A DNA stretch of 39,402 nucleotides from Bacteroidales bacterium (lineage in GTDB: Bacteria; Bacteroidota; Bacteroidia; Bacteroidales; Muribaculaceae): contig JAAVFI010000047.1 of the NCBI GenBank assembly GCA_014800815.1, positions 1 through 39,402 on the forward strand, in the 5' to 3' direction. How positions within the stretch are numbered: position 1 is the first letter of the stretch; every line of letters starts with the position of its first letter. Position numbers and translations under genes: made by a program. The notes beneath the pieces were generated by a model. That model was not told where the DNA came from. It was given only the letters and a program-made list of their open reading frames with translations, and ran no database searches. Shown here one piece after another: positions 166-18,574 of this stretch.

Positions 166-345
166 ATGATTACTCCAGAGGATGTCGGAGGACATCGATT
201 ACCGCATAACCGTACATACTGGAGCCGAAAGGCATAGGGATGTGCCCGGATAGTCATACCCCTACGTTTGCGTCGTAGTACGCCGATTCATGGCTGTGTC
301 AACGGGCCGAGAGCGCAGGAGCATTTCCCCGCCCTCAACAACTAT
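166..345 (+). repeat. Structured intergenic repeat, copy A1
   Basis: Same order of parts as the copies at 16970 and 18367: hairpin GATGTC/GACATC (181-196), GATT, CATAAC (205-210), a long helix from GTACAT (212-217) with ATGTGC (240-245) enclosing GCC-GAAA-GGC (224-233), then CTACGTT, helix GCGT/ACGC (270-283) and the core CATGGCTGTGTCAACG. It ends in AGGAGCATTTCCCCGCC (317-333). No ORF fits across it. Its right end faces the stop codon of the convergent gene ending at 359. Confidence 0.7.
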
Positions 346-358
346 TCGTACAGTCTCC

Positions 359-943
359 TCATCCCTTCTCAATAAAATATCCGATAATCCAGCCCTCACT
401 CAGTTTCAGTCCTATTAATGGTCCTGCGATAAATAATATTAACGCGATAATCGCTGCAATTATACCGACTCGCTCCATTTTCTTCTGCCACGTAGCACTC
501 CTTTTCTTAAATTTCTTCAGATATTTATCACTCTTATTATCCTTATCAATAGCCCATTGTACATAGGCATACACTATATATAGTGAGGCAAAGGGCATAA
601 AAACAAACCTTAAAGCCTTGTCTCCAAACGTCCACATAATGATTCCTAATAGAATCCAACAGAAAAACCAAGGTACCGACATAGCTATTTGATAGATGCT
701 TTGCCATGCTCCACCCTCCGAAATGCCATCGGCAATACCATCCATTATCGGATTCATCATCTTCTGATTGTCGTCTATCTCCTGTAGCTTCTTCTTCGAG
801 AATATAAACCTCTTGAATATATATTTCAATGGATAGAATATCCAATCTATTGTTCGCCAGATAAACATACCCAATCTACGTTGAGCCAGACAAAGGCCAA
901 AGTATAGCTCATTCATCAAATATTCAAACCGCTCTGCATCCAT
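359..943 (-). CDS. Hypothetical membrane protein, first of a paralogous pair
   Basis: 194 aa, not recognised. An amphipathic N-terminal region (about 1-60) is followed by about three hydrophobic segments near residues 89-106, 112-130 and 158-180, with a charged stretch DKYLKKFKKRS at about 138-148 between the second and third. No signal peptide and no enzyme motif is visible. The gene is clearly more AT-rich than the sugar operon beyond it. It shares segment order and short motifs (FEY near the N-terminus; DKY...F...S...W...K before the last membrane segment) with the next gene upstream, so the two are probably distant paralogues in one transcription unit. Function unknown; a toxin, immunity or phage-defence role is conceivable but not shown. 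Confidence 0.6.
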   Translation of the reverse strand: MDAERFEYLMNELYFGLCLAQRRLGMFIWRTIDWIFYPLKYIFKRFIFSKKKLQEIDDNQKMMNPIMDGIADGISEGGAWQSIYQIAMSVPWFFCWILLGIIMWTFGDKALRFVFMPFASLYIVYAYVQWAIDKDNKSDKYLKKFKKRSATWQKKMERVGIIAAIIALILFIAGPLIGLKLSEGWIIGYFIEKG

Positions 944-989
944 AGTTAACTAATATACCGATTCAACTATTCCACCTATTTTGCATCAA

Positions 990-1538
990 TTATTGTATAA
1001 ATAGTTTCCACATGAGTAAAATGCCTATGGCAAATGCGCCTAAGGAGCCACCAAATATAAATAAGATTGTTCTCCATATCCATTTACGATGCCATTGTCT
1101 GCTCTCTTTAGAAAAAAGACCAAAATAGCGTCTATATTTGTCATGAGAATATACTGCTTTATAGGCTGGTATATAGCCTATAATAATTGGAAGCGCAATT
1201 AATATGTAGGTAAATGCATCCATATCCACCCCTCTGATTTTCCATGAAATTGCAACTAATATAAATGATAGAATTTCTGGATACCCGGAGTAAATATACC
1301 CGAATGAATCACTTGCGGAAGTCTCTATAACACCTTGTCTTGCAGATTTGATGACTCTATTTGTCTCAGCAATATGTATAGCTGCTTTTTCGCGAATATT
1401 ACTTGGTAAAAAGATCTTTGTGAATAACAATATACTATTATACAATATTACATCTATAAAACCAGAGAATTTACTTTCCAAAATCCCCATGCAGTAATGA
1501 ATTGCATTAAGACAATATTCGAACGATCCTTTTTTCAT
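990..1538 (-). CDS. Hypothetical membrane protein, second of a paralogous pair
   Basis: 182 aa from the chosen ATG at 1538 (begins MKKGSFEYCLNAIHYC). A GTG at 1607 would add 23 residues, but the ATG start lines up with the start of the neighbouring paralogue (MDAERFEYLMNELYFG). About four hydrophobic segments are visible, the last (TILFIFGGSLGAFAIGILL) near the C-terminus, preceded by DKYRRYFGLFSKESRQWHRK, which matches the charged motif of its partner. AT-rich. It lies 46 bases upstream of the partner on the same strand, consistent with an operon. Product unknown; no enzymatic motif seen. Confidence 0.55.
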   Translation of the reverse strand: MKKGSFEYCLNAIHYCMGILESKFSGFIDVILYNSILLFTKIFLPSNIREKAAIHIAETNRVIKSARQGVIETSASDSFGYIYSGYPEILSFILVAISWKIRGVDMDAFTYILIALPIIIGYIPAYKAVYSHDKYRRYFGLFSKESRQWHRKWIWRTILFIFGGSLGAFAIGILLMWKLFIQ

Positions 1539-1539
1539 A

Positions 1540-1652
1540 CTATTTACCATAAAAATAATCAACAGATAATCCGGTATTATTACTTCCAAGAATTCCACCG
1601 AGAGCACCCCCTACAAAAAGACAATCAGTAGTAGGCTTTTCACGGTCTTCAT
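1540..1652 (-). pseudogene. Possible small ORF interrupted at a T5 run
   Basis: An ATG at 1652 opens a hydrophobic, signal-like MKTVKSLLLIVFL and then meets TAG just after a run of five T (minus strand, 1615-1619). One extra T, or a -1 slip there, would join it to an open frame reading VGGALGGILGSNNTGLSVDY and ending in TAG at 1540-1542, just upstream of the ATG of the next gene. The intact form would be a protein of about 37 aa. It could be a frameshifted small gene, a slippage-controlled gene, or chance in AT-rich DNA. Confidence 0.25.
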
Positions 1653-1744
1653 ATTTTGATGGTTTATAAAATCGGAATAGTAAATTTTCTACAAAAATAA
1701 TAAAAATTTATATAGCCGGGAAATTCTCACATATTTTTGTTTCT

Positions 1745-1801
1745 CCGCCTCGCATGAAGGAACGTGTGCGGGTATATGTCTTGTGGCGGGGAAATGCTCC
1801 T
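1745..1801 (+). repeat. Fragment of the structured repeat (A5) plus inverted 17-mer
   Basis: The stretch GTGTGCGGGTATATGTC (1764-1780) resembles ATGTGCGGGGTATGTC of the copy at 16970. It is followed by GGCGGGGAAATGCTCCT (1785-1801), the exact reverse complement of AGGAGCATTTCCCCGCC at 317-333 in copy A1. The rest of 1608-1840 holds no other convincing gene. Confidence 0.45.
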
Positions 1802-1840
1802 ACGGCTTCCCACTGTTTTAGTCTATATCCCCCTCTAAAC

Positions 1841-1866
1841 AAAAAAAGCCCGGCAGCACGCCGGGC
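1841..1866 (-). terminator. Intrinsic terminator of the epimerase operon
   Basis: On the minus strand, perfect 7-bp stem GCCCGGC/GCCGGGC (1848-1866) with a 5-nt loop, followed directly by seven T (1841-1847). It lies 38 bases after the stop of the epimerase gene. Confidence 0.85.
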
Positions 1867-1903
1867 CAAATTACCTTTTAAACCTTAGAAACTGAATTTT
1901 TCT

Positions 1904-3094
1904 TTACTTGCTTTCCTGAGCAGCCTTGATTTCTTTCAGGGTTGTCCATACCTGATAGAGACCGCGGGGAACGTGGAAACAGCCTTTCCACTTACCGCCC
2001 TTGAGGGGAAGGAGTACTTCGCCGCGGCGGTTGAGGTAGCCGTACCATTCGGGGAATTCCTGATCCTTGAAGTGGCTCCAGGTGTAGTCCTGTACGCGGT
2101 TGAACCACTCGAGGCAGCGTTCGTCGCCTGTGAGGGCGTAGCCTTTTATCATCGAAATCATGGTCTCGATGTGTACCCACCAGAGCTTCTGGTCCCACTC
2201 GAGCTGCTGGGGAGGACATCCCTTGAGGTCCATGAAGTAGAATATACCGCCGAATTCTTTGTCCCAGCCGTATTCGAGCATCTTGAGGGCAGTTTCTTTT
2301 GCCATTTCGATGAGGTCGGGACGATTCATCTTCTTGCCGAGGTCCATGATGAACCACATAGCTTCGATAGCGTGTCCGGGGTTCATGTGACGGCCTTCGA
2401 AGCAGTCGCAGAGAGTACCGTCTTCGAGTACGTTCTCCATTACGAGGCCACCGAGTTCGGGACGGATAAATACGTCGCATACTTCGTGGAGGAAGTCGTC
2501 GGTGGTACGGGCGAAGGCGTTTTCGTCGAGGAGATGCTGAATCTCAAGAGAGAGATTGCAGAGAATCATCGGCAGAGCGAAGTTCTTGAGGTTGCGTGTG
2601 CCGGGGTGAAGCTTGTTCCACTTTGCCTTGGGGTTGTTGCGGCGCTCGAGTATGCGCTCCCAGGTGCGGAGAGCCACTTCTTCGTATTCTTTCTTGCCGG
2701 TAGCCTTAGCGAGCTGGCCGAAAGCCATGGTTGCGAAGGTGTAGGAGAAGATATTGTAAGGCTCTACGATAGGCTTGCCGTCGCGGGTAACGGAGAAATA
2801 CCAGTTGTACTCGCCGTCGTGTCCGTGCTCCATGAGGAAGCGGGCACCCTGCTCGGCAGCTGCGAGCCATTCGGGATTTTTCTCAACATTATTGTATAGC
2901 ATGGCGAGCATCCACACCTCGCGGCCCTGAAGCCAGATGAATTTGTCGGTGTCGAAAACATTGCCTTCTCGGTCGAGACAGGTAAAGTATCCCCCGAATT
3001 CGGCGTCCTGCGATTTTTCGAGCCAGAAAGGAATTACCGAGTCAAAGAGTTCGCTTCGGTACTGTTCGATGAGTTGATCTAAGTTGTCTATCAT
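1904..3094 (-). CDS. N-acylglucosamine 2-epimerase family protein
   Basis: 396 aa, the usual length of the AGE (renin-binding protein) family, an (alpha/alpha)6 barrel of cytoplasmic sugar epimerases. Diagnostic motifs are RHMNPGHAIEAMWF (about 235-248), KLWWVHIETM (303-312) and GGKWKGCFHVPR (366-377). The histidines in NPGH (H241) and FHVPR (H374) match the catalytic pair known in the family. The GCFHVPR ending is closer to GlcNAc/ManNAc 2-epimerases than to cellobiose epimerases, so interconversion of N-acetylglucosamine and N-acetylmannosamine is the best guess. It is the last gene of a four-gene minus-strand operon and has its own terminator. No sialic acid lyase lies nearby, so the real substrate is open. 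Confidence 0.88.
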   Translation of the reverse strand: MIDNLDQLIEQYRSELFDSVIPFWLEKSQDAEFGGYFTCLDREGNVFDTDKFIWLQGREVWMLAMLYNNVEKNPEWLAAAEQGARFLMEHGHDGEYNWYFSVTRDGKPIVEPYNIFSYTFATMAFGQLAKATGKKEYEEVALRTWERILERRNNPKAKWNKLHPGTRNLKNFALPMILCNLSLEIQHLLDENAFARTTDDFLHEVCDVFIRPELGGLVMENVLEDGTLCDCFEGRHMNPGHAIEAMWFIMDLGKKMNRPDLIEMAKETALKMLEYGWDKEFGGIFYFMDLKGCPPQQLEWDQKLWWVHIETMISMIKGYALTGDERCLEWFNRVQDYTWSHFKDQEFPEWYGYLNRRGEVLLPLKGGKWKGCFHVPRGLYQVWTTLKEIKAAQESK

Positions 3095-3137
3095 TGTGTA
3101 TATGGTAAATTTCGGAGTTTGAATCCTGTTTTAGATA

Positions 3138-4589
3138 TCAGAGTGAGTCTGCTTTTGCTGAGGTGGTGGCGGCCACAGCCTCGGGGTCTTCCCAGTATTT
3201 CTCGATTTCTTCGAGGGTGCGTCCGGTGGTCTCGGGCACGCAGCGCCACATGATGAGCATGTAGGGTACGCACATCACTGCGAAGAGCAGGAAGGTGCCT
3301 GCGCCGCCGAGGTTCTCAAGCAGCCAGGGAGTGAGCTGGCCTACGAGGTAGGTGCCGATCCACAGCGCGAGACCTGCTATCGACATGGCCAGAGCGCGTA
3401 TCTTGGTAGGATACATCTCGCTCAGCAGTACGAATACCACGGCGCATATCGAACCTGCACAGCAGAATATGTAGAAGAGGAAGAAGATGAGAAGCCATAT
3501 CGACGATATGCCTGCCGATGCGCCCCAGGTGAAGTATGCGGCAATGAGGAGGAGTGATACTATCATGCCCGACACACCCCAGTAGACGAGCTGCTTGCGG
3601 CCTGCCTTGTCGATGATGAACATTGCACCAATGGTGGTGAGAGTGTTCACGGCTCCGACCATTACCTGATAGAAGAGGGAGTCGCTGCCCGAGAGGCCTG
3701 CGTCCTCAAAAATCGTAGGACCGTAGTAGAGCACTGCGTTCACACCCATGAACTGGCCCAAAATGGCGATAGCGGTACCGATAAGCACTGCGCGGCGCAT
3801 GCGCGGACGCATGAGCAGGTGCAGGCTGTTGCCCTCGCCTTTGGTCGTTGCGAGCGATGCCTCTACAGCGGCTGCTTCGCCACGGGCTGCAGTCTCGCTC
3901 TTGAATACGCGCTTGAGCACCTCGCGGGCGCTTGTGCCGCGGTTATGGGCAAAGAGCCAGCGGGGACTTTCGGGGATGAAGAATATCACGATGAAGAACA
4001 TCAGCGCCGGGAGTGTCTCCATGCCGAGCATGCCTCGCCACGACTCCGATACGAGGATGCGGCTCCAGAGGCTGTCGTCGGCAGTAGGAGCTGCTTCGAT
4101 AGAGTAGTTGAGGAGTCCGAAGTTGACAAGGTACGCACCTAAGAAGCCCACGGTTACGGCAAGCTGATAGAGCGATACCAGACGGCCGCGATACTCGGCG
4201 GCGGCAAGTTCGGAGATGTAGAGGGGGCAGATGATAGAGGCAACGCCGATACCGGCACCGCCCACTATACGCCAGAGTACGAGCTCATTGAATGTACCGC
4301 AGAGCGCGCAGCCTATAGCCGAGGAGCTGAAGAGTACTGCCGATATCACCATGGCCCATTTACGGCCGAGGGCATCGCCGAGCACGCCGGCTACTGATAC
4401 GCCGGCAATGGAGCCGAGCAGGGCACAGCCCACATACCAGCCCTGGTTCATGGCCGAGAGGCTGAACTGCGATGCTACCTGGGAGATAGTACCCGAAATT
4501 ACGGCGGTGTCGTAGCCGAAGAGGAAGCCTCCGAGAGCGGCTACGAACGATATGAAGAAGAGGTATCCTAAGTTGATGTCCTGTTTCAT
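3138..4589 (-). CDS. MFS sugar transporter (sugar porter family)
   Basis: 483 aa, 12 predicted membrane segments, inner-membrane sugar:proton symporter type. Sugar-porter signatures are present: FLFGYDTAVISG in helix 1, GRKWA after helix 2, RGRLVSLYQLAVTVG, PESPRWLF before the central loop, GRKQL in the second half, PTKIRALAMSIAGLALWIG, and the C-terminal PETTGRTLEEIE. This places it with XylE/GalP-like porters rather than the NanT sialate group. It lies 43 bases upstream of the epimerase and 12 bases downstream of the DUF4434 gene, so it probably imports the sugar handled by this operon. Substrate cannot be told from sequence. Confidence 0.9.
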   Translation of the reverse strand: MKQDINLGYLFFISFVAALGGFLFGYDTAVISGTISQVASQFSLSAMNQGWYVGCALLGSIAGVSVAGVLGDALGRKWAMVISAVLFSSSAIGCALCGTFNELVLWRIVGGAGIGVASIICPLYISELAAAEYRGRLVSLYQLAVTVGFLGAYLVNFGLLNYSIEAAPTADDSLWSRILVSESWRGMLGMETLPALMFFIVIFFIPESPRWLFAHNRGTSAREVLKRVFKSETAARGEAAAVEASLATTKGEGNSLHLLMRPRMRRAVLIGTAIAILGQFMGVNAVLYYGPTIFEDAGLSGSDSLFYQVMVGAVNTLTTIGAMFIIDKAGRKQLVYWGVSGMIVSLLLIAAYFTWGASAGISSIWLLIFFLFYIFCCAGSICAVVFVLLSEMYPTKIRALAMSIAGLALWIGTYLVGQLTPWLLENLGGAGTFLLFAVMCVPYMLIMWRCVPETTGRTLEEIEKYWEDPEAVAATTSAKADSL

Positions 4590-4601
4590 TGCATGGTATT
4601 T

Positions 4602-5693
4602 TTATGATTCGGTAATGCCGAAGTAATCGCGGTATCGGTTGTAGAGGTGACCTGCCTGGGCGTAGGCCGACTGCGGGCTCATGAAGTGGCTGAACTCAAA
4701 GGTGATAGCCTTGTCGTAGCCTGCTCGCTTGGCGGCCTCGAGCTTGAGGCGGAGCTTTTCGAACTTGATAGGGAAGAACTTGATAGGCATATCGCGGTCG
4801 AACGACTCGGCGTTGGTCCAGCACTGCATGCCGTATTTGTCGGCCATGCGCTTGTTCACTTCAAAGAAAGCGTCGAGCTCGTCGTAGTCGATGTGTCCGT
4901 CCTGGAAGGCGCAGGCGTCGACCACGTCGTGTATGCCGTCGAATATCTCGCTCCATTCGCGTTCGTGTTCGGCCACGCTCACGGCGTCTTCCTTGGTGAG
5001 GGCGGCGCCTGCAGCGGCTACGGCTTTCTTGCCGTCGATCCACGGAGATATGAAGGTGGGGAGGCCGCCCGACACATCCTTGCACTGCTTGCCCATGGCG
5101 TGGAACGACTCGATAGCACCCTTGGTAGCGCGGCTTATCTCGCCGCTGATGTACCAGCCTCCGAAGCTCGGGTGGTGCTGACCGTAGTTTTCCCACACTT
5201 CGTCGATTACATATTTATTGTCTTCCACCTCCCAGCTCATGTCGCCGGTATCCCAGTAGCGGCCCGAGTCGTAGAGACCGAACCAGAACTTCATGCCGTA
5301 TTTATCGGCAAGACGGAGGTACATGTCGAGGAGGTCGATGTGCGGAGTATAGCACCCGCGCTTGGCGGTGAGATATTTCGAGGGATAGGTTATGAACTTG
5401 CGGTAGCCCGAGCGAATCATTATCACGGTGTCGATGCCCATAGCCTTCATGTGCGCGAAGTCGGCATCCCACTCTTTCTCGCCCCAGTTCTGGTGGGGAA
5501 TATCGTGAGAAATTTCGTCGAGGAAAGTACCGGTAATAGGGAGTCCGGCACCCTTGGGAGTCACTGTCGGACCCGTGTAGATGTCGGTGGGTGGAACGGA
5601 TACGGGCGCTTTGGCCGCGCTCATCACCTTGGGCAGGGCGAGCGCAGAAGCTCCGAGAGCAAGTTTTTTGAGGAAGCTGCGTCTGTTCTCCAT
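4602..5693 (-). CDS. Tat-exported DUF4434-type TIM-barrel protein
   Basis: 363 aa from the ATG at 5693; the open frame continues upstream, but this start gives a clean signal. N-terminus MENRRSFLKKLALGASALALP is a twin-arginine signal (RRSFLKK, then a hydrophobic stretch and Ala-rich region). The mature part starts with GTFLDEISHDIPHQNW and has alternating DTVIMIRSGY, KFWFGLYDSG, FGGWYISGEI, QCWTNAESF and ITFEFSHFMSP segments typical of a glycosidase-like beta/alpha barrel; I assign DUF4434 from the opening motif. Glu in YISGEI and in NAESF are candidate catalytic acids. Likely periplasmic or surface-attached and acting on the glycan served by the adjacent transporter. Enzymatic activity is not established. 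Confidence 0.7.
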   Translation of the reverse strand: MENRRSFLKKLALGASALALPKVMSAAKAPVSVPPTDIYTGPTVTPKGAGLPITGTFLDEISHDIPHQNWGEKEWDADFAHMKAMGIDTVIMIRSGYRKFITYPSKYLTAKRGCYTPHIDLLDMYLRLADKYGMKFWFGLYDSGRYWDTGDMSWEVEDNKYVIDEVWENYGQHHPSFGGWYISGEISRATKGAIESFHAMGKQCKDVSGGLPTFISPWIDGKKAVAAAGAALTKEDAVSVAEHEREWSEIFDGIHDVVDACAFQDGHIDYDELDAFFEVNKRMADKYGMQCWTNAESFDRDMPIKFFPIKFEKLRLKLEAAKRAGYDKAITFEFSHFMSPQSAYAQAGHLYNRYRDYFGITES

Positions 5694-5737
5694 GATAGTT
5701 GTTTTATAGTATGTAGAGGACCGGGAATTGATGCCGC

Positions 5738-6952
5738 CTACTGCAGCATGTCTTCGAACGCGCGGCTGCGGGCAATGACGCACGCACCGAGCACTCCTGC
5801 GTCGCTACCGAGTTGCGAGAGGCAGATCTTTGTTTCTTTATTTACGAGGTTGATAGAATAGCGGCGCATAGCCACGCGTATAGGCTGGAGCAGGTAGTCG
5901 CCTGTAGCTGCAAGCATACCGCCTATTATTACAGTATCGGGGTTGAAGATGTTGATCATGCCTGCGAGCCAGCGGCCGAGGTGCTGACCTACCTCTTCTA
6001 TAAGTTCGAGGCACAGAAGGTCTTCGTGAGCTACGGCGTCGAGTATGTCGTCGAGAGTCACATTGCCTTGTGCGCGGTATTTTTCAGCGATTATCGAGTT
6101 GGCGCCGGCGTCGAGGCGCTGGCAGAGCTTGCGGTGCAGGGCGCAGCCCGAGGCTTCGGTCTCGATGCAACCCTTTTTGCCGCAGCGGCATATCACCTCA
6201 TTGTCGTAGGTGACCATGTGGCCGAATTCGCCTGCGAAGCCTGAATTTCCGTAGAAAATCTTGCCGTCGAGTATCATGCCGAGGCCTATACCCCAGCTGA
6301 CATTTACGAAGAGCACGTTGCGCTCCTCGCGGTGCGAACCGCACACATATTCGCCGTAGGCCATTGCGCGCGTATCGTTGTCGATGCACACCTGCACACC
6401 TATTTTATTAGTGAGTACGTCGGAGAGAGGCTGCTCCTTGGTGTTGAAGTAGCTGTAGCTGTAGCCCGTACGCGGATTCACGCGTCCCGAGATATTCACG
6501 TTGAGGCTCATAATGGCACTTCTGGGCACGGGTACGGTGCTCAGGAAGTCGCTTATGAGTTCGCAGAGGCGGTCGAGGCTCTCGGGAGTATCTTCTTCTT
6601 TGAAGGGGATGTTGTCCGATTTTGTCACCACGCTTCCACAGAGGTCGAGCACAGCCATGCTCACGGTATTGTTCTTGATGTCTACGCCCCCGAAGTAGCA
6701 AGCTTTGGGGTTAAGACCATATAGAGCGGGGTGGCGTCCTCCGCTCATTTCGAGTTTTCCTTTTACCTTAATAATATCCAGAGCTGCCATTTCTTCCAGA
6801 AACTTATTTACGGTAGGTACGCTGAGGTTAAGTTTCTTGGCGAGATTGGCTATAGTATCATGGCCGTTGTTGAGGTAATGGAAGATGATACGCTTGGCCA
6901 TGAGAGCATTTTTGCTCCCTTTTTCAATACGGGTCATCAACGGCGTTTCCAT
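5738..6952 (-). CDS. ROK family transcriptional regulator
   Basis: 404 aa. An N-terminal winged helix-turn-helix (HDTIANLAKKLNLSVPTVNK, about 34-53) is followed by a ROK sugar-binding domain: FGGVDIKNNTVSMAVLD, IDNDTRAMAYGE, the ROK signature around VSWGIGLG and GFAGEFGHM, and the zinc-type motif CRCGKKGCIETEASG. The combination is that of a NagC/XylR-type repressor that senses a sugar. It is the first gene of the operon, 44 bases before the DUF4434 start, with a good promoter upstream, so autoregulation of the operon is likely. Start could also be the Met six codons in (MTRIEK). Confidence 0.9.
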   Translation of the reverse strand: METPLMTRIEKGSKNALMAKRIIFHYLNNGHDTIANLAKKLNLSVPTVNKFLEEMAALDIIKVKGKLEMSGGRHPALYGLNPKACYFGGVDIKNNTVSMAVLDLCGSVVTKSDNIPFKEEDTPESLDRLCELISDFLSTVPVPRSAIMSLNVNISGRVNPRTGYSYSYFNTKEQPLSDVLTNKIGVQVCIDNDTRAMAYGEYVCGSHREERNVLFVNVSWGIGLGMILDGKIFYGNSGFAGEFGHMVTYDNEVICRCGKKGCIETEASGCALHRKLCQRLDAGANSIIAEKYRAQGNVTLDDILDAVAHEDLLCLELIEEVGQHLGRWLAGMINIFNPDTVIIGGMLAATGDYLLQPIRVAMRRYSINLVNKETKICLSQLGSDAGVLGACVIARSRAFEDMLQ

Positions 6953-7004
6953 GTCGAGAGGTGTATGATTGGTTTAATAATTTGGTGTCACGGTTTATTC
7001 ACTG

Positions 7005-7036
7005 CAAAGTTAAAAAGAATACATGCAACCACCAAA
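7005..7036 (-). promoter_or_regulatory. Bacteroidota promoter of the ROK/sugar operon
   Basis: Minus strand: TTTG (7033-7036), 20-nt spacer, TAACTTTG (7005-7012), matching TTTG-N19/20-TAnnTTTG. It lies 52 bases upstream of the ROK start, leaving room for an operator in the leader. Confidence 0.75.
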
Positions 7037-7139
7037 CATTTCGACAAAAATTTGATAATGGTTTTCAACTTTTGCAAAAAGTTTAGTTTTAACCCCCGCC
7101 GCCACCCCTTTTTTGAGCCTTTTATGTGCCCCGGGACAC

Positions 7140-7176
7140 AAAAAAGCCGCCGGCGAAGTAGCTTTTTCGCCGGCGG
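7140..7176 (-). terminator. Intrinsic terminator of the rubrerythrin gene
   Basis: Minus strand stem CCGCCGGCGAA/TTCGCCGGCGG (7146-7176) with a short loop, followed by a run of T (7140-7145), 24 bases past the rubrerythrin stop. Confidence 0.88.
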
Positions 7177-7200
7177 TATCGTAAAAAATTTCCGTTAATC

Positions 7201-7785
7201 TTAGAAGTTGTCGGGGAAGCGCTCGAACCAGGCCTGATCGCGACCGCACACGGGGCAACGCTTGGGCGCAGCCTTGGCGGTGATAGTGAAACCGCACTGG
7301 CGGCAGTACCATTCGATAGGTTCTTCCGACTCGAACTCAGTGCCGCTTTCGAGGCGCTCGAGCAGACGGAGGTAGCGCTGTTCATGCATCTTTTCTACAC
7401 CAGCAATGAGTTTGTAGAGGTTTGCAATCTGGGGGAATCCTTCCTCCTGAGCAGTCTTGGCGAAGCTGTCGTAGAGGTCGCCCCACTCCTCGCGTTCGCC
7501 TGCGGCGGCTTCGGCAAGGTTGGTCTTGGTGTCGGCTACAACGCCGGCGGGATAAGCGGCTGTGATTTCTACAGTACCTCCTTCGAGGAAGCTGAAGAAC
7601 TGTTTTGCGTGGCTGAGTTCCTGTTCTGCAGTAGCGAGGAAGATAGCTGCAATCTGCTCATAGCCTTCTTCCTTAGCCTTCTGGGCAAAGAGGGTATAGC
7701 GTGAGCGAGCCTGGCTTTCGCCGGCAAAAGATGCGAGAAGATTGTGTTCGGTACGTGTACCTTTGATACTTTTTGTAGTAGCCAT
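7201..7785 (-). CDS. rbr: Rubrerythrin
   Basis: 194 aa, typical length. The N-terminal ferritin-like four-helix domain carries diiron motifs ([23 protein letters not shown] with ExxH, and a second [15 protein letters not shown] pair). The C-terminal rubredoxin-like domain has WYCRQCGF and [13 protein letters not shown], the four cysteines of an FeCys4 site. It reduces hydrogen peroxide in the cytoplasm of anaerobes. Single-gene unit: terminator right behind it, convergent with nothing, and a 243-base gap upstream facing a divergent gene. I saw no clear promoter consensus for it in that gap. Confidence 0.95.
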
Positions 7786-7936
7786 ATTATTGTAGTTTTT
7801 TAGATTCAGTAATTAGGTATTTTGTGTCACTGCTTTTAAAACAAATAGGCGTGCCTTTTAGTTCTCGAAGAAAATAGCTTAGGCATGTGTGTGAGTGATT
7901 CTATGTATTAAATATTGTTAAACACTTTCGTAAAAC

Positions 7937-8628: not shown

Positions 8629-8653
8629 AGTACTCCAACTTAACGATTATATC

Positions 8654-12064: not shown

Positions 12065-12396
12065 TGCTTGAGCAGGGAGTCGATGTTCTCGAGGTAGTCG
12101 AGCGAGTCGTCGAGATAGAACTGGAGCTCGGGGCACTTCCTGAGTTGGAAGCGGACTTTCTGTGCCAGTTCGTAGCGAATGGTCTTGGCCGAGGCCTTGA
12201 TGCTCTCAATCATCTCGGGAGCCTTGTCGGAGGGGAATACCGAGAGATATGCTTTGGCGATAGAGAGGTCGGGCGATACGCGCACGGCGCTCACCGATAC
12301 TATCACACCGTGTGTCTTGGCTGTCTGTTGGCGGAAGATTTCACTGAGTTCTTTTTGCAGCAGACGCGATATTTTAGCTTGACGGGTAGTTTCCAT
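12061..12396 (-). CDS. rbfA: Ribosome-binding factor A
   Basis: 111 aa, usual length. RQAKISRLLQKELSEIFRQQ at the N-terminus and VSAVRVSPDLSIAKAYLSVF, then IRYELAQKVRFQLRKCPELQFYLDDSLDY, are the KH-like fold motifs of RbfA, which matures the 30S subunit 16S rRNA 5' end. First gene of the rbfA-permease-radical SAM-channel group; its stop overlaps the permease GTG. Confidence 0.95.
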   Translation of the reverse strand: METTRQAKISRLLQKELSEIFRQQTAKTHGVIVSVSAVRVSPDLSIAKAYLSVFPSDKAPEMIESIKASAKTIRYELAQKVRFQLRKCPELQFYLDDSLDYLENIDSLLKQ

Positions 12397-12441
12397 AGTT
12401 TAATTATTTCTGTTTCCTTTATAAAACACGTCATCAGCCCA

Positions 12442-12449
12442 CAAAGTTA
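12442..12449 (-). promoter_or_regulatory. -7 box of the rbfA promoter
   Basis: Minus strand TAACTTTG, 45 bases upstream of rbfA; no good TTTG at the expected -33 spacing. On the opposite strand TAATTTTG (12463-12470) lies 22 bases before the divergent sigma-54 activator and may be its -7 box. Confidence 0.5.
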
Positions 12450-12492
12450 GCAAAATTTTTTGTAATTTTGTTTTCCGATTCCATTACGACCC

Positions 12493-13746
12493 ATGTCTAA
12501 CGCAACTCCCATAGCAAGCTTTCCGCCTCAGGTTCAGCAGGCAAAGCAGCGGTTCGGCATCATCGGCAACGCTCCGTCGCTGCTGGCTGCCGTAGAGCGT
12601 GCCATACGTGTGGCTCCTATCGACCTGTCGGTTCTCGTCACCGGCGAGAGCGGTACCGGCAAGGAATTTTTCCCTCAGATCATACACGCCTACAGTGCCC
12701 GCAAGCACGCAAAATATATAGCCGTGAACTGCGGCGCCATACCCGAAGGTACTATCGACTCCGAGCTTTTCGGCCACGAGAAAGGTGCTTTCACCGGTGC
12801 CGTCGACTCCCGTAAGGGCTACTTCGAGGAGGCCAACGGCGGCACGATATTCCTCGACGAAGTGGCCGAGCTTCCGCTCACCACTCAGGCCCGGTTGCTG
12901 CGTGTGCTCGAGAGCGGCGAATACCTCAGGGTAGGCTCCTCGACGGTGCAGAAGACCAATATCCGCATCGTTGCCGCCACCAACGTCGACCTCCCCCGTG
13001 CCGTGGCCGAAGGCCGCTTCCGCGAGGACCTTTTCTACCGCCTGTCCACGGTGCAGATACACATTCCGCCTCTGCGCGACCGCGGTAGCGACGTGCGCCT
13101 GCTCGCCCACAAATTCGCCTCCGACTTTGCCGAGCGCTACCGCATGCCCCTCATCCACTTCGATACCGGCGCCGACGACGCCATGCGTCACTACCGCTGG
13201 CCCGGCAATGTGCGTCAGCTCAAGAATGTAGTGGAGCAGGTATCGCTCTTCGAGGCCGGAAACGAGATAACGGAGTCGGTGCTCCACAGCTATCTGCCCG
13301 AGATTTCGTCGAGTTACATCCCCGCTACCGCAGCGGCAGGCTCTCACTCCTACGAGAAAGAGCGCGAGATGCTCCTCAGCATGATTTTCCGCCTCCGCGA
13401 GCGCATCGACGACCTCCAGAAGCGCATCGACAGCAACGAGCGCCCCACACATATCTTCGGCTCCGAGTCGGGCGAGAAGTCGCTCCCCGCATCGCTCATC
13501 ATCCACACCCCCGTGGCCGAACCCAAGGCTGAGAACGATGAGCGGGACGACGACGACCGTCCGCCCTGCAGCGAAGTGAACTACTCCGAGGTGACCGACA
13601 CTCCCGCAACACTGCGCGACAATGAGCGCGACATGATACGACGCTCTCTCGAGCGCAACGGCGGCCACCGCAAGGCTGCTGCTGCCGAACTTCATATATC
13701 TGAACGCACACTTTACCGAAAAATAAAGGAATATGGCCTCGAATAG
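12493..13746 (+). CDS. Sigma-54 dependent transcriptional activator
   Basis: 417 aa. A central AAA+ domain starts almost at the N-terminus: Walker A GESGTGKE (51-58), the sigma-54 contact loop GAFTGA (98-103), Walker B GGTIFLDE (116-123) and sensor YRWPGNVRQLKN. The C-terminus ends in a Fis-type helix-turn-helix (NGGHRKAAAAELHISERTLY). There is no receiver, GAF or PAS domain, so activity is probably set by expression or by a partner protein. It overlaps the downstream lptE-like gene by 14 bases, so it is co-expressed with envelope genes. Confidence 0.93.
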   Translation: MSNATPIASFPPQVQQAKQRFGIIGNAPSLLAAVERAIRVAPIDLSVLVTGESGTGKEFFPQIIHAYSARKHAKYIAVNCGAIPEGTIDSELFGHEKGAFTGAVDSRKGYFEEANGGTIFLDEVAELPLTTQARLLRVLESGEYLRVGSSTVQKTNIRIVAATNVDLPRAVAEGRFREDLFYRLSTVQIHIPPLRDRGSDVRLLAHKFASDFAERYRMPLIHFDTGADDAMRHYRWPGNVRQLKNVVEQVSLFEAGNEITESVLHSYLPEISSSYIPATAAAGSHSYEKEREMLLSMIFRLRERIDDLQKRIDSNERPTHIFGSESGEKSLPASLIIHTPVAEPKAENDERDDDDRPPCSEVNYSEVTDTPATLRDNERDMIRRSLERNGGHRKAAAAELHISERTLYRKIKEYGLE

Positions 13747-14260
13747 ACACTCTGCAACCCTTTGCGCCGCCTTCATGCTGGCGGTGATGATGATATTCGC
13801 GGCCTGCCGTATCACCATAACGATGAACGGTTCGGCGCTCGACTACAACATCTACAAGACCGTGCGCGTAGCCGAGTTCCCTATCCGTGCTGCGCTGGTG
13901 TATCCGCCTCTGCAGCAGACTTTTGAAAACGAGCTCCTCAACTATATTTCAAAGAATACGCGCCTGCAGACCACCGACGGTCCCTCCGACCTCGAAATCG
14001 AAGGCGAAATCACCGGATACAACCTCACCCCGCAGGCCGTGACCGAAAACGGCTACGGCTCGATGACCCGACTCACTATTTCGGTAAGGGTGAAGTATGT
14101 GAACAATAAAGAAGAAAACAAGGATATCGACCAGACTTTCAGCGCTTACCGCGACTTCGATTCGTCGGAAATGCTCACCGATGTCCAGGACCAGCTCTGC
14201 GAGGAAATATCGAAAGAACTTGTAGAACTGATATTTAACGCAACTCTCGGCGACTGGTAA
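13733..14260 (+). CDS. lptE: LptE family lipoprotein
   Basis: 175 aa. N-terminal hydrophobic signal ends in a lipobox-like IFAAC, so it is predicted to be a lipoprotein with Cys at about residue 25. The mature protein has the Bacteroidota LptE pattern: a short beta entry, a segment KTVRVAEFPIRAALVYPPLQQTFENEL, then DLEIEGEITGYNLTPQA and a C-terminal helix. LptE plugs LptD in the outer membrane for lipopolysaccharide insertion. It overlaps the upstream activator by 14 bases and is followed after 4 bases by the next gene. Assignment rests on pattern and lipobox; moderate certainty. Confidence 0.75.
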   Translation: MASNRHSATLCAAFMLAVMMIFAACRITITMNGSALDYNIYKTVRVAEFPIRAALVYPPLQQTFENELLNYISKNTRLQTTDGPSDLEIEGEITGYNLTPQAVTENGYGSMTRLTISVRVKYVNNKEENKDIDQTFSAYRDFDSSEMLTDVQDQLCEEISKELVELIFNATLGDW

Positions 14261-14264
14261 TACT

Positions 14265-15068
14265 ATGGATATGGAAGACAGTCAGCAACTCATAGCGCGG
14301 CTCTGCGCTCTCCCCGACGGTGCGGCCCTCTCGGCCGAAGATACCGCCGCCCTACGGGCTCTCGACGAAGAACACCCCTTCGCCGTAGTCCCCGCCGTGC
14401 TCCTTCTGCGCCATTGCCCCGCCCTCCCCGCCGACGTCACGGCCTCGCTCCGCACCAAGGTTGCGCTTCTCTCATCCGACCCCCGCACCACACTTTTCGC
14501 CGCCCACGGCGACGACTGGGCACGATTCTACCCCGAGCCGGCGGCGCCCGAGGCCATGCAGACCACGAGCGTAATCGACACCTTCCTCAGTACCTACGGC
14601 TCTTGTTCGCCCGAAGAAGAAGCGCTGCTCGAACGCATGATTTTCAATCCTGCGCCCGACTATGCCGAGCTCCTCGCCCGTGAGGAACAGGAAAATCTGC
14701 CCCCCGAAGGTGCCGACGAACCCGGAAGTGCCGACGAGCGCATCAACGCCTTCATCCGCAGCCGACACCCCGCGGCCAATCCGCCCGAACTCCTCCCCGA
14801 CCCCGAGCCGGCTCCCGAACCCGCCCCCGACACAAAGCCCGTGGAGCGCCCCGAACCCTCCGACGATTCGCTTCTCAGCGAGAGTCTTGCTAAAATTTTC
14901 ATAAAACGAGGCAGATATGAGAAGGCTTACGAAATTATATCGGGTTTAAATTTGAAATTTCCAAAAAAAAGTGTTTACTTTGCAGACCAATTGCGATTTC
15001 TGCAAAAATTGATTATAAACCGGCGTCAGCTTGACTCTCAGGAGAACGGCGGCGCACCAGAAAAATAA
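14265..15068 (+). CDS. Uncharacterised protein with Pro-rich linker and TPR-like tail
   Basis: 267 aa, no signal peptide. The N-terminal part (1-160) is Ala/Leu/Glu-rich and helical. It is followed by a Pro/Glu-rich linker around residues 166-205 with repeated PEP/PAP units, then a conserved-looking helical tail (LAKIFIKRGRYEKAYEIISG, then KFPKKSVYFADQLRFLQKL) that resembles one and a half TPR repeats. The last 60 codons are distinctly AT-rich against the GC-rich rest. It lies between lptE and secG in the same operon, so a role in envelope or secretion is plausible but unproven. Confidence 0.7.
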   Translation: MDMEDSQQLIARLCALPDGAALSAEDTAALRALDEEHPFAVVPAVLLLRHCPALPADVTASLRTKVALLSSDPRTTLFAAHGDDWARFYPEPAAPEAMQTTSVIDTFLSTYGSCSPEEEALLERMIFNPAPDYAELLAREEQENLPPEGADEPGSADERINAFIRSRHPAANPPELLPDPEPAPEPAPDTKPVERPEPSDDSLLSESLAKIFIKRGRYEKAYEIISGLNLKFPKKSVYFADQLRFLQKLIINRRQLDSQENGGAPEK

Positions 15069-15080
15069 GCTAAATAAACT

Positions 15081-15464
15081 ATGCACGCAGTAGTTATCGT
15101 ACTCACAGTGATTGTTGCTGTTCTTCTTATCGGCATCGTCCTCATCCAGAAGTCTAAGGGCGGAGGCCTCTCATCACAGTTCGGTGGTGCAGGTTCCGTT
15201 ATGGGCGTACGTCAGACCAACAGCTTCCTCGAAAAAGCAACCTGGACTCTCGTGAGCATCCTCGCTGTCCTTTCGATTATCTCAGCATTCACCATGCCCC
15301 GCTCAAACGGCGCAGCTCAGATCCGCACTCAGCAGGCTGAAGCTCCCGCTGCCGTTGAAATCCCCGCAGGTCAGTTCGACACACCCGCAACTCTTCCTAC
15401 CGACATCGATGCGACTGAAGCAGCTGAAGCTGAAACTCCCGCTGCCGCAGGTGTTGAGGAATAA
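15081..15464 (+). CDS. secG: Preprotein translocase subunit SecG
   Basis: 127 aa. Two membrane segments (about 4-22 and 53-70) flank the cytoplasmic loop KSKGGGLSSQFGGAGSVMG, the SecG hallmark, followed by an acidic Ala-rich tail common in Bacteroidota SecG. Works with SecYE in the inner membrane. Last gene of the operon before a strong hairpin. Confidence 0.93.
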   Translation: MHAVVIVLTVIVAVLLIGIVLIQKSKGGGLSSQFGGAGSVMGVRQTNSFLEKATWTLVSILAVLSIISAFTMPRSNGAAQIRTQQAEAPAAVEIPAGQFDTPATLPTDIDATEAAEAETPAAAGVEE

Positions 15465-15498
15465 GTCGCTGTAGTAATCTTGAAACATAAAAATATCG

Positions 15499-15529
15499 TA
15501 GCGGCGCCGGCAGTGATGCAGCGCCGCTA
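15499..15529. terminator. Strong hairpin between secG and the U32 gene
   Basis: Perfect 9-bp stem TAGCGGCGC/GCGCCGCTA with a 13-nt loop, 34 bases after secG. No T-run follows on the plus strand, so termination may be partial and the U32 gene may still be reached by read-through. Confidence 0.55.
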
Positions 15530-15550
15530 TACTCATATAGTTACGAAAAT

Positions 15551-16801
15551 ATGAAACGTAGCGATTTCGAAGTAATGGCTCCCGTCGGGAGCTACGAATC
15601 TCTCACGGCAGCACTCAATGCAGGTGCCGATGCAGTATATTTCGGCGTGGAAGGCCTCAACATGCGTTCACGCTCAAGTGCCAACTTCACTCTCGACGAC
15701 CTCCGCTCTATAGTAGAACAGTGCAACGCCGCCGGCGTGCGCACCTATCTCACCGTCAACACCATAGTCTACGACTCCGAGCTTCCCAAAGTCGACGCCA
15801 TAGTCAGCGCTGCTGCTGAAGCCGGCGTATCGGCTGTGATAGCCTCCGACATAGCAGCCATAGCCGCATGTCGCCGCCATGGAGTGGAAGTACACATATC
15901 CACCCAGTGCAATATCTCCAACATCGAGGCCGTGCGCTTCTACTCGGCCTTTGCCGACGTAATGGTGCTCGCCCGCGAGCTCAGCCTCGACCAGGTAAAG
16001 GCAATCTCCGACGCAATCCGCACCGAAGATATCCGCGGCCCCAAAGGCAAGCTCATCGGCCTTGAGATGTTCTGCCACGGCGCCCTCTGCATGGCAGTGT
16101 CGGGCAAATGCTACCTCAGTCTCCACGAGATGAACTCGAGCGCCAACCGCGGTGCATGCACACAGATATGCCGCCGCAGCTACGGCGTGACCGACCTCGA
16201 GACAGGCGACGAACTCAAAGTCGAGAATAAATATATAATGTCGCCCAAAGACCTCAAGACCATACACTTCCTCGACCGTATGGTCGACGCCGGCATCACC
16301 GTATTCAAAATTGAGGGCCGTGCACGCGGTCCCGAGTACGTAGATACCGCCGTACGCTGCTATAGCGAGGCCCTCGAAGCGATATGCGACGGCACCTTCG
16401 GCGCCGAAAAAGTGGCCGACTGGGATGCACGCCTTGTCAAAATCTTCAACCGCGGCTTCTGGGACGGCTACTACCTCGGCCAGCGCCTCGGCGAATGGTC
16501 GGGTAAATACGGCTCATCGGCAACCCGTGTCAAGCAGTATGTGGCCAAGGGCGTGAAATACTTCTCCCGCCTCGGCGTGGGCGAATTCCTCATGGAAGCC
16601 CAGGAACTGTGCGTAGGCGACGAAGTGGTAATCACAGGCCCTACCACCGGAGCCCTCATCATCACCGTCGAAGACATCCGCGTGGGCGGCAAGAGCGTAC
16701 CCAAAGCTGTCAAAGGCGACGCCTTCTCCATAGCCGTCCCCGCCAAAATCCGTCCGGCCGACCGCCTATACCGCTGGCTCCCCACTGATGCGCAGGGGTG
16801 A
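15551..16801 (+). CDS. U32 family peptidase-like protein (TrhP/RlhA type)
   Basis: 416 aa. The N-terminal TIM-barrel segment (VMAPVGSYESLTAALNAGADAVYFG) and the U32 signature with cysteines FCHGALCMAVSGKCYLS and RGACTQICRR (about 175-216) are intact; these cysteines are the presumed Fe-S or prephenate-dependent hydroxylation site. Family members TrhP and RlhA hydroxylate tRNA uridine-34 and 23S rRNA cytidine; which of these applies here is not decidable by eye. The gene ends directly at the edge of repeat copy B4. Confidence 0.88.
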   Translation: MKRSDFEVMAPVGSYESLTAALNAGADAVYFGVEGLNMRSRSSANFTLDDLRSIVEQCNAAGVRTYLTVNTIVYDSELPKVDAIVSAAAEAGVSAVIASDIAAIAACRRHGVEVHISTQCNISNIEAVRFYSAFADVMVLARELSLDQVKAISDAIRTEDIRGPKGKLIGLEMFCHGALCMAVSGKCYLSLHEMNSSANRGACTQICRRSYGVTDLETGDELKVENKYIMSPKDLKTIHFLDRMVDAGITVFKIEGRARGPEYVDTAVRCYSEALEAICDGTFGAEKVADWDARLVKIFNRGFWDGYYLGQRLGEWSGKYGSSATRVKQYVAKGVKYFSRLGVGEFLMEAQELCVGDEVVITGPTTGALIITVEDIRVGGKSVPKAVKGDAFSIAVPAKIRPADRLYRWLPTDAQG

Positions 16802-16847
16802 GGATAGAATCACTTCGGCACGCATATATAATGCCCCTACGTGGGGG

Positions 16848-16969
16848 CAATGCCTCAGCCATGACTCGGTGTCCTTGGACGACAACGTGTATATCAGACC
16901 CATCCCCGTACCTACCGAAGCCGCATGGCGTAGGTAAGTACGGGTTACGATTTAATCAATGCCCTCCGG
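16848..16969 (-). repeat. Structured intergenic repeat, copy B4
   Basis: Read on the minus strand it follows the family order: GATTAAATC, GTAACCCGTAC, a long hairpin (CCCGT...ACGGG outside ACCTAC/GTAGGT, enclosing GCC-ATGC-GGC), then ACACGTTGTCGTCC, GGACACCGAGTCATGG and CTGAGGCATTG (to 16848). The left hairpin has been lost. It lies head-to-head with copy B2 and its right end faces the stop of the U32 gene. Between 16802 and 16847 is a further short hairpin GCCCC/GGGGC and no gene. Confidence 0.7.
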
Positions 16970-17140
16970 GTGTAATTATCTAACTATCACGGAATTTACG
17001 TGGTGTCTGTAAGACACCGATTAACTCATAACCCCGTACATACCGTAGCCGCCAGGCGGAGGGATGTGCGGGGTATGTCTATACCACTACGTTGGCGTCC
17101 GGCCGAGGACGCCGATTCATGGCTGAGTCAACGGCCTTTT
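16970..17140 (+). repeat. Structured intergenic repeat, copy B2 (best-formed)
   Basis: GTGTAATTATCTAACTATC (16970-16988); hairpin GGTGTCT/AGACACC (17002-17018); GATTAACT then CATAAC; perfect 10-bp helix CCCCGTACAT (17032-17041) with ATGTGCGGGG (17064-17073, one G-T pair), enclosing GCC-GCCA-GGC; TATGTCTATACCACTACG; outer helix CGTTG (17090-17094) with CAACG (17129-17133), inner helix GGCGTCC/GGACGCC (17094-17113) and conserved GATTCATGGCTGAGT. No ORF. Confidence 0.75.
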
Positions 17141-17141
17141 C

Positions 17142-17402
17142 TCAATATGTCAATTTCCTCTTCGCTGCGAGGTGTGAGCCGTGCGGCTCATCGTGTGCGG
17201 GGCAGCTGCCGCTAAGGTATTCACCTTGCCCCTTGTGGTATTCAATGGCATAGTTGGCTTTGCCACTGTCTCCGTTCTTATACCACCAGTCAATGTATTG
17301 CGAATTGGCTTCAAGGAATTTGACAAATTCCTTTTCAGGATTAGACGCAGTTTTGAGTTGAATGAACGGTATAAGAGCATGATTCTCTGCCGGAAGTTTT
17401 AA
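17142..17402 (-). pseudogene. Remnant of a type III restriction/DEAD-box helicase C-terminal region
   Basis: An open minus-strand frame with no start codon of its own reads LPAENHALIPFIQLK, then ASNPEKEFVKFLEANS, QYIDWWYKNGDSGKANYAIE and YHKGQGEYL. The S-N-x-E-K-E-F...WWYKNGD pattern is that of the region near the C-terminal nuclease of type III restriction (Res) subunits and related helicases. Immediately after, the frame runs into unrelated sequence and stops at 17142, next to repeat B2. Both ends are therefore broken; it cannot be a working gene. Confidence 0.6.
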
Positions 17403-17514
17403 TCTCGTCTGCCGAGAAGTCGTAAGCGAGAAGCTGATAAACGTAACGAAGTTGGTTATCGCCTAATTCGTGCCAGCCTTGCGGCACTTTGAAATTGATT
17501 GAAATGTTCTGCAT
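17403..17514 (-). pseudogene. N-terminal remnant of an unidentified accessory gene
   Basis: Starts MQNISINFKVPQGWHELGDN and goes on QLRYVYQLLAYDFSADEIKT, which looks like the beginning of a conserved Bacteroidales protein of unknown function often seen in mobile or phage-like regions (from memory, not checked). Around 17402 it joins the helicase remnant in another frame, giving a nonsense tail and stop at 17341. A simple deletion fusing two genes would explain this. Confidence 0.45.
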
Positions 17515-17578
17515 AGAAAAATGGGCTTTAACGCACTGCGAAAGTACGGTAAAGCCCACTATGCGGAAAAGACAACGA

Positions 17579-18013
17579 TTATTCGTCTTTCAAGTCTGCT
17601 AAGGAGATTTCTTGAGTAAAAAGATACTCACCATCAAGATTATAATAATCATATCTAAAAGTGAACCCCTGTTCCAAAAGTTTTTTCTCTTTTGGCTGAG
17701 ACTTCATTATAGGAACGGCTATTTTTTTAGCTTCAACGATTTGAGAATCGGAGGGTTTACGAACTCCTGGGATAGTATACTGATATTTATAATGTATAGT
17801 ATATTTTGCGTCATCATAGTTAACATCGGTAATAATCATACCAACACCACCCTCAATTGGAAGATGTTTACTAAACATTTTAAGTTCAGTTTTTACTAAA
17901 TCGACAGCATCATTAGATGGAATATTTTGTTTATCTTTACTTGTGCAACAAGATAAAGATATTGTAACAATCGTCAGAATGACAATGTGAATAAATTTAA
18001 TTCTTACCTTCAT
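17579..18013 (-). CDS. Small predicted lipoprotein
   Basis: 144 aa. Signal peptide MKVRIKFIHIVILTIVTISL ending in lipobox LSCC, so lipidation at one of the two adjacent Cys (about 22-23). The mature part is a mixed beta/alpha domain with LVKTELKMFSKHLPIEGGVG, NYDDAKYTIHYKYQYTI and GFTFRYDYYNLDGEYLF, resembling the shape of small NTF2- or DUF4878-like domains, but I cannot assign a family. AT-rich, with its own promoter, and the only apparently intact gene between repeats B2 and B3. Confidence 0.7.
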   Translation of the reverse strand: MKVRIKFIHIVILTIVTISLSCCTSKDKQNIPSNDAVDLVKTELKMFSKHLPIEGGVGMIITDVNYDDAKYTIHYKYQYTIPGVRKPSDSQIVEAKKIAVPIMKSQPKEKKLLEQGFTFRYDYYNLDGEYLFTQEISLADLKDE

Positions 18014-18042
18014 GTATATATTCTATGGCTTTATTTTGGGTG

Positions 18043-18050
18043 CAAATATA
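18043..18050 (-). promoter_or_regulatory. -7 box of the lipoprotein gene
   Basis: Minus strand TATATTTG fits TAnnTTTG and lies 29 bases upstream of the lipoprotein start. A weak TTGG sits about 18 bases further upstream as possible -33 element. Confidence 0.5.
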
Positions 18051-18075
18051 CGAATTTTTTTGAATTATCCAATAG

Positions 18076-18360
18076 TCAAAAGAAGTAGCCTGCACTGTTC
18101 TTCTTATTTCTGAATACAGGCGGAGCAAACAACTTGGCTGCATCTGAGCCGTACCATTCCTTAAAAGCCGATTCATCTTGCCTTATGAAATTGACTATAT
18201 CGGCGAGCCTACGCGAATTGAACGACCCGCCTTTGAGGTAACCCACAATCTGGGCTTGGGTCTGCCAGACAATCTCACTCCGCTTTTCGGTCAGATCTGA
18301 GCGGAGATTTTCGGAGCGAAGTGCTGACATCAGTTCAGGCGAGAGCCATTCTTCGGCTAA
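18076..18360 (-). pseudogene. C-terminal remnant cut by repeat B3
   Basis: Minus-strand frame reading LAEEWLSPELMSALRSENLR, then SDLTEKRSEIVWQTQAQIVG, YLKGGSFNSRRLADIVNFIR and QDESAFKEWYGSDAAKLFAP, ending at 18076. It looks like a real, well-composed protein tail, but upstream it runs into repeat B3 (left edge 18367) and a stop at 18373-18375. An internal Met at 18330 could start an 84-residue product. Family not recognised. Confidence 0.45.
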
Positions 18361-18366
18361 CGATGC

Positions 18367-18574
18367 GTGTAATCAGCTTACTATCAGGGAGTCTATGTGG
18401 TAGGAGGACTCCGATTCCAGCATAACGGGTACATATCGCACCGAAGCGGAGAGATGTGCCCGGACAGGCTCGCTCCCTACGTTGGCGTAGGAGGACGCCG
18501 ATTCATGGCTGAGTCAACGACCCGTAAGCGCAGGAGGATTCTACTAACCACATAGAGTGTCAGGTAGTTAGCTG
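18367..18574 (+). repeat. Structured intergenic repeat, copy B3, with terminal inverted repeats
   Basis: Family order: GTGTAATCAGCTTACTATC; hairpin GGAGTC/GACTCC (18388-18412); GATT; CATAAC; 9-bp helix CGGGTACAT (18426-18434) with ATGTGCCCG (18454-18462) enclosing CCG-AAG-CGG; CTACGTT; helix GGCGT/ACGCC (18484-18499); core CATGGCTGAGTCAACG. Unlike the others it closes on itself: CAGCTTACTA (18374) pairs with TAGTTAGCTG (18565-18574), and CTATGTGGT (18393-18401) with ACCACATAG (18547-18555), as in a MITE-like unit. Confidence 0.75.

Follow-up and report, generated by a model that had tools for sequence, protein, structure and literature searches.

Contig JAAVFI010000047.1 of a Muribaculaceae draft genome (Bacteroidales bacterium, assembly GCA_014800815.1), analyzed here at its full length of 39,402 nucleotides and hereafter called the window, contains copies of a folded repeat that is dispersed through the genome. 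These repeats are very probably non-autonomous mobile sequences resembling repetitive extragenic palindromes (REPs) and REPINs, ~140 nt long with three hairpins and coupled to a Y1 nuclease that bears the motifs of TnpAY1 subclass 1.2. The new element is a partner repeat for an enzyme subclass without a reported DNA partner.

The source genome (G000 in our numbering, where C, G and L denote contigs, genomes and loci) comprises 2,774,707 bases in 79 contigs, of which the window is C47. From 38 copies in this genome we built a covariance model, R1, with 142 positions and 26 pairs, and accepted matches at E ≤ 0.001. R1 matched 62 places in the 2.77-Mb genome. A blastn search with the copy at 16970 as query gave 55 matches, many of them close to contig ends. 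Four R1 matches lie in the window, each spanning all 142 model positions and each itself among the 38 sequences that built the model: copy 1 at 175–309 (+; 100.6 bits, helices 2 and 3 decayed), copy 2 at 16843–16980 (−; 91.2 bits), its head-to-head partner copy 3 at 16996–17138 (+; 154.2 bits, the best preserved copy in the window) and copy 4 at 18382–18524 (+; 108 bits). The structured repeat family that a sequence-only reading had proposed from these four copies is, thus, real, and the covariance model and genome search it had recommended recovered further matches in other genomes. By hand count of the R1 matches, the source genome holds single copies, seven head-to-head pairs and one tail-to-tail pair (C63); tail-to-tail pairs also occur in other genomes (L170, L171, L177, L179, L182 and L186).

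Read along the plus strand, the repeat consists of hairpin 1 (seven consensus pairs), GATT plus two bases, the motif [G/A]TA[A/G]C, a long helix 2 around a small hairpin, a spacer that varies, hairpin 3 and, in most cases, CGATT. GATT plus two bases is present in all 38 source-genome copies, [G/A]TAAC stands directly before helix 2 in 32 and the terminal CGATT is followed by CATGGC in 37; in a cross-genome set, the motif before helix 2 reads GTA[A/G]C in 27 of 35 copies. For copy 3, the fold as single-stranded DNA (ssDNA) places hairpin 1 at about 17002–17018, the long helix at about 17032–17073 and hairpin 3 at about 17094–17113, with the core extending to 17138. By eye, a second repeat type in the same genome (GGTACCC...GGGTACCGATTCAC...) has the same order of parts in other letters. 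R1 matches of ~38–56 bits represent this type, judging by position (C37:1406, C10:55385, C14:1, C77:209, C28:83163 and C42:872).

Selection on the fold was assessed by covariation. Among the 38 source-genome copies, 96.7% of 980 pair cells held a standard pair, compared to 90.2% after shuffling and 29–48% for slid structures. Changes on both sides occurred in 11 of 26 pairs (5.7 in shuffled alignments) and in 62 cells (17.2 in shuffled alignments). The weakest measure, further pair types, reached 22 versus 19.3 and was equalled by 28 of 500 shuffles. Helix 3 is nearly invariant in this genome and adds almost nothing there, so it is other genomes that provide the evidence for it. Outside the source genome, 71 matches from 35 loci were aligned by fitting to R1, which had also selected them. 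In this alignment, 90.9% of cells were paired (73.6% shuffled, 27–49% slid), and both-side changes affected 25 of 26 pairs and 271 cells versus 71.8; for the three outer pairs of helix 3, the share of paired cells was only 55.5%. We also aligned 35 copies, one of them from the window and 34 from other genomes, with MAFFT and without fitting to the model, which gave 21 predicted pairs, 18 of them with both-side changes; at two long-helix pairs, A-U and G-C occurred in 18 and 17 copies, and C-G and G-C in 19 and 14. Covariation, therefore, shows that the fold is conserved: helices are kept while bases change, both within the genome and across genera, as the sequence-only reading had argued, and its suggestion that a folded single strand, RNA or DNA, is selected is supported by the same data.

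The folded strand is likely the plus strand, because the complementary strand would have A-C where the alignment keeps U-G pairs (columns 53/85 and 111/132 of the source-genome alignment). The U-G pair inside the long helix is present in 22 of 38 source-genome and 23 of 35 cross-genome copies, and the one in helix 3 in all 38 source-genome copies. Taken alone as ssDNA, copy 3 folded clearly better than its shuffles (z −4.0; opposite strand −2.4).

A search of 17 genomes for Y1_Tnp (PF01797) detected a single match in the source genome, C42:312–656 (−), and this gene sits between R1 copies at 92–221 (+) and 712–856 (−). The 142-aa product carries the motifs DHVH and YIMNQKAHH. It scores 64.9 bits with the NCBIfam model transpos_IS200, above the cut-off of 55, and 26.5 bits with REP_Tyr_transpos, where the cut-off of 80 is not reached. 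A 2018 survey (PMC6006769) assigns to TnpAY1 subclass 1.2 the motifs DH[IV]H and Y---Q--HH, a median length of 148 aa, low copy number and a distribution mostly in Cyanobacteria and Bacteroidetes, with REP listed as ‘no’. Our protein agrees in its histidine–hydrophobic–histidine (HUH) motif DH[IV]H, in Y---Q--HH, in size and in its single copy. The invariant tryptophan is followed here by A, G, E or C, and the corresponding motif of subclass 1.2 is WQ. Relatives of the enzyme were mostly Bacteroidales records, the best named one (61% identity) coming from a Bacteroidales metagenome-assembled genome, and a profile of ten such Y1 proteins had matches in 209 of 397 genomes of the family. Y---Q--HH was found at 30 of the 30 best loci and at 69 of 69 testable named loci, in sets for which the choice of frame favored those with this motif. 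A second clade of the enzyme has NH[IV]H in place of DH[IV]H.

Enzyme genes and repeats go together at the level of single loci. A plain blastn comparison of the upstream flank with the reversed downstream flank, which did not use the structure model, revealed inverted flanking repeats 60 nt or longer at 26 of the 30 best loci versus 1 of 120 random spots placed in loci fetched for repeats or for a neighboring terminase-like gene. These long inverted flanks differ from the ‘no’ that the survey enters for REP. In an earlier set of 19 of 21 Y1 loci, such flanks occurred at 8 of 13 loci that have Y---Q--HH or, for L209, are cut before the motif, versus none of the six loci without it; the remainder of the 13 comprised three loci with a 21–30-nt flank and two with none (L208 and L213, the latter with only 129 nt upstream), and among the six, five lacked an inverted flank and one had 25–27 nt. 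A named set of 80 loci, from which nine with short flanks and two without a recognized frame were left out, yielded at least 60 nt at 45 of 69 testable loci and 20–59 nt at 12 more. The 30-locus and named sets share genomes, and seven locus pairs have identical flanks.

The repeat type follows the enzyme clade. R1 lay on both sides within 130 nt for 15 of 16 genes of the GM[PS]DH clade and for none of the 14 others (Fisher p = 2e-7). In a tree of the 30 Y1 proteins, which was built without references from subclasses 1.1 and 1.2, two groups were split at 100/100, all 15 R1-flanked proteins fell on one side of a branch (91/78) and the R1 label required one change versus 10.3 in shuffles. At the genome level, a Y1 gene of this kind was present in 37 of 44 R1-bearing and 172 of 353 other genomes (one-sided p = 4e-6), from a hand-made table that assumes both searches drew on the same 397 genomes, with a profile derived mostly from genomes that bear the repeat and with related species that are not independent. 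The repeat that flanks the second clade (L244) had 2–34 matches in each of eight genomes, often as inverted pairs ~28 nt apart. Sixteen stretches around such places in seven genomes shared units of ~250–410 nt that were 83–96% alike; their alignments stop where the flanks begin, and the copies sit at unrelated places.

One L244-type pair (G352:C22) was studied for presence or absence by seeking its neighboring genes in the same genus. Both neighbors were matched at 23 of 28 related loci and the repeat region at none of these 23. In the closest of them, G321 and G439, 134 and 93 nt separate the matching blocks, compared to 700 and 657 nt in G352. The site shows presence and absence of the repeat pair, not the exact ends or the agent of an insertion. 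Beside the same neighbor gene, a gene resembling a terminase large subunit (L337) occurs in many species of this one genus (L349–L374); it and the neighbor were both found at 23 of the 28 loci compared, and 53 of 61 genomes gave matches to a query taken from its 3′ part, some only to the repeat or short pieces.

Several observations weigh against a mobile repeat moved by this nuclease. Three of the four window copies, taken alone as ssDNA, gave no clearly better fold than their shuffles (z −1.0 for 18382–18524, −0.7 for 16843–16980 and +0.5 for 175–309); we interpret this as a sign that old copies have decayed. GTAGC stands before helix 2 in only 6 of 35 cross-genome copies. Four of the 30 best loci (L232, L233, L241 and L242) lack a long inverted flank, with 30, 21 and 22 nt and none, yet L233 has R1 matches on both sides. 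At L223, both R1 neighbors point in the same direction, yet a 177-nt inverted repeat is present there. The 14 genes without R1 include nine close relatives, so the clade comparison contains fewer independent cases than its p value suggests. The profile search found no Y1 gene of this kind in seven of the 44 repeat-bearing genomes (G007, G039, G120, G139, G239, G290 and G361), where it may have been lost or left unassembled. In G352, ~250–300 nt of the occupied gap lie outside the repeat pair, and intergenic sequence is unconserved; because of both, the insertion ends and target cannot be fixed. Lastly, neither cleavage nor movement was seen.

Alternatives were weighed against the same data. 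An ordinary insertion sequence of the IS200/IS605 type, with ends that survive as solo copies, is unlikely. The enzyme does exceed the transpos_IS200 cut-off and, as in IS200/IS605 elements (subclass 1.1), an HUH/Y1 enzyme is combined with folded flanks. However, the source genome contains 62 repeat matches and one enzyme gene rather than multicopy, near-identical transposases, the flanks are inverted and ~140 nt long, and the survey describes the Y---Q--HH subclass as not sharing the properties of insertion sequences. The sequence-only reading had named a known Rfam family or the end of an insertion sequence as what would speak against its proposal. No Rfam family and, with one Y1 gene in the source genome, no multicopy insertion sequence end was found there, yet a transposase-like gene does have the repeats on its flanks, and this favors ssDNA over RNA. 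At the gathering cut-off, Rfam had no match in the window, and at E ≤ 10 the region 16700–18700 had three matches far below the cut-off, none of them over a repeat copy.

Somewhat less probable still is a repeated structured noncoding RNA, a regulator or terminator that the Y1 gene merely carries in its untranslated ends. The one-strand U-G pairs would suit either RNA or ssDNA, none of the four window copies overlaps any of the seven neighboring open reading frames (ORFs) compared, and a survey of candidate structured RNAs reports palindromic candidates in Bacteroidetes (PMC8040213). Besides the missing Rfam family, mirror-image copies on both sides of the Y1 gene argue against this explanation, as they would be needless for a leader RNA, and so does the different repeat that the second Y1 clade has at the same places. 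Our first idea was that the repeats are spread by a multicopy terminase-ATPase-like gene that often adjoins them in the source genome, where R1 lies within 135 nt upstream on the same strand at 12 of 28 gene starts (a manual count, with several starts at contig ends). We dropped it because co-occurrence is little above chance, with seven of the 44 repeat-bearing genomes among the 42 that have the gene family (~4.7 expected), and because the Y1 gene fits better; the seven gene copies of G041 are, moreover, preceded by other repeats. We now regard spread by this gene as very improbable.

A REP/REPIN-like repeat coupled to the Y1 nuclease, the reading we prefer, was also compared to known systems. 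As in REP, bacterial interspersed mosaic element (BIME) and REPIN systems with TnpAREP (REP-associated tyrosine transposase, RAYT), dispersed palindromes occur singly and as inverted pairs, a low-copy Y1 gene has inverted flanking repeats, enzyme group matches repeat family and a short conserved motif precedes a hairpin on its 5′ side. Unlike REPs, for which the 2018 survey gives 21–65 nt, the unit is ~140 nt with three hairpins, and [G/A]TA[A/G]C stands where REPs have GT[A/G]G 5′ of the hairpin foot. The enzyme has Y---Q, unlike class 2 RAYTs with Y---NP. We did not file the system under RAYT/REP because the enzyme differs from class 2 and the repeat from REPs in size and in GT[A/G]G. Judged by title or the start of the abstract, searches of open-access literature brought up no description of REP-like repeats for subclass 1.2, most subscription papers lying outside these searches, and none of the papers searched joined ‘Muribaculaceae’ and ‘repetitive extragenic’.

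The gene family adjoining many repeats in the source genome encodes ~240 aa and was detected at 31 places by tblastn with a 113-residue query (for example, L065, L069 and L070). Searches of Pfam, NCBIfam and PHROGs assigned it to no family, none of the PDB sequences matched at E ≤ 10 and, with a G020 relative as query, 50,697 phage records gave no match; a profile matched 42 of 397 genomes of the family. One of the longer matches, L166 (593-aa frame), resembles a complete phage-type terminase; its Pfam hit to Terminase_6N is weak and below the cut-off (E = 0.036). A structure predicted for the short protein (mean predicted local distance difference test score 76.8) was closest in the PDB to the ATPase domains of phage large terminases, T4 gp17 and P74-26 (E = 7e-4, template modeling score 0.35–0.41), and by eye the usual P-loop lysine is absent. 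On this structural model, the family resembles a degenerate phage-terminase ATPase domain. It is under strong purifying selection: across 14 copies, the ratio of nonsynonymous to synonymous polymorphism (pN/pS), computed with stop codons skipped, was 0.05 over 75 pairs, and variable sites numbered 19, 5 and 91 by codon position. The ratio from a second group, in which G041 copies are mixed with those of other genomes, was set aside. In the copies examined, similarity stops shortly past the stop codon, at TTGACNTNYTG or the like. The G041 copies (L084, L090, L094, L096, L098, L100 and L102) have another type of hairpin repeat, GTGCGAGGGCGGAAAGCCCGAG, ahead of them, and several also have GGTGGCTTCAGCCACC; this hairpin repeat may have its own mobilizer.

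Remnants of this family also occur in the window. A 3′-end remnant at 17137–17220 (−; 89% over 84 nt to L065, 93% over 76 nt to L070) abuts the 3′ end of copy 3 as a neighbor, not as part of the repeat. The sequence-only reading had listed two partial repeats, one of which withstood analysis. Its 96–165 (−) is the 5′ third of a copy, with hairpin 1, GATTAAC and CAGTAAC at 100–165 (−; blastn 107–165), while its 1745–1801 is a remnant of the terminase-like gene’s leader (1764–1796, −; 88% over 33 nt to L069). A 20-nt inverted pair, 314–333 and 1785–1804 (95%), resembles the start of this leader and encloses ORFs 359–943 and 990–1607, which lie on the minus strand beside copy 1 and have no Pfam match. 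The window contains no tRNA or tmRNA.

The partial copy is head-to-head with copy 1 and ends directly after CAGTAAC, where another repeated, insertion-like sequence starts. The end of that sequence (1–99, −), at which the contig also ends, interrupts the partial copy at the foot of helix 2, and contig C49 has the same start and the same junction. Altogether, two different repeated sequences end inside the structured repeat at the long-helix foot (window 1–99 and C49; C27, C42 and C68), with break points right after GTAAC or right before GGGTACATG. Such breaks would fit a site that is exposed or preferred at the foot, as if other elements targeted the spot, and prove nothing. Some relatives have tandem repeat arrays with a period of ~90 nt (G301:C184:9811–10206 and G042:C228:2986–3298).

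Our data suggest a scheme in which the plus strand of the repeat would fold when single-stranded and the cognate Y1 nuclease, encoded by one gene between inverted copies, would recognize the fold. The enzyme would then cut near the foot of the fold with its tyrosine and join the repeat elsewhere, and the outcome would be single copies and inverted pairs between genes. In this scheme, ssDNA would be the substrate, the foot of the fold the probable cutting site and this enzyme the putative mover of the copies. More broadly, and more tentatively, subclass 1.2 Y1 enzymes could form a third REP-type system besides IS200 and RAYT; we hold this to be a real possibility that falls somewhat short of an even chance. 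Here, a whole multi-hairpin unit of 100–150 nt would be the substrate, each clade would have its own repeat and the degenerate terminase-ATPase-like gene would ride in or beside it as a second mobile unit.

The repeat is a likely substrate for an enzyme subclass whose description named no DNA partner, and folded ssDNA repeats may, accordingly, far exceed classical REPs in size. The many natural pairs of enzyme and repeat could, through their covariation, reveal how Y1 nucleases recognize folded DNA. For gut Bacteroidales, the coupling to a Y1 nuclease would explain one family of dispersed repeats.

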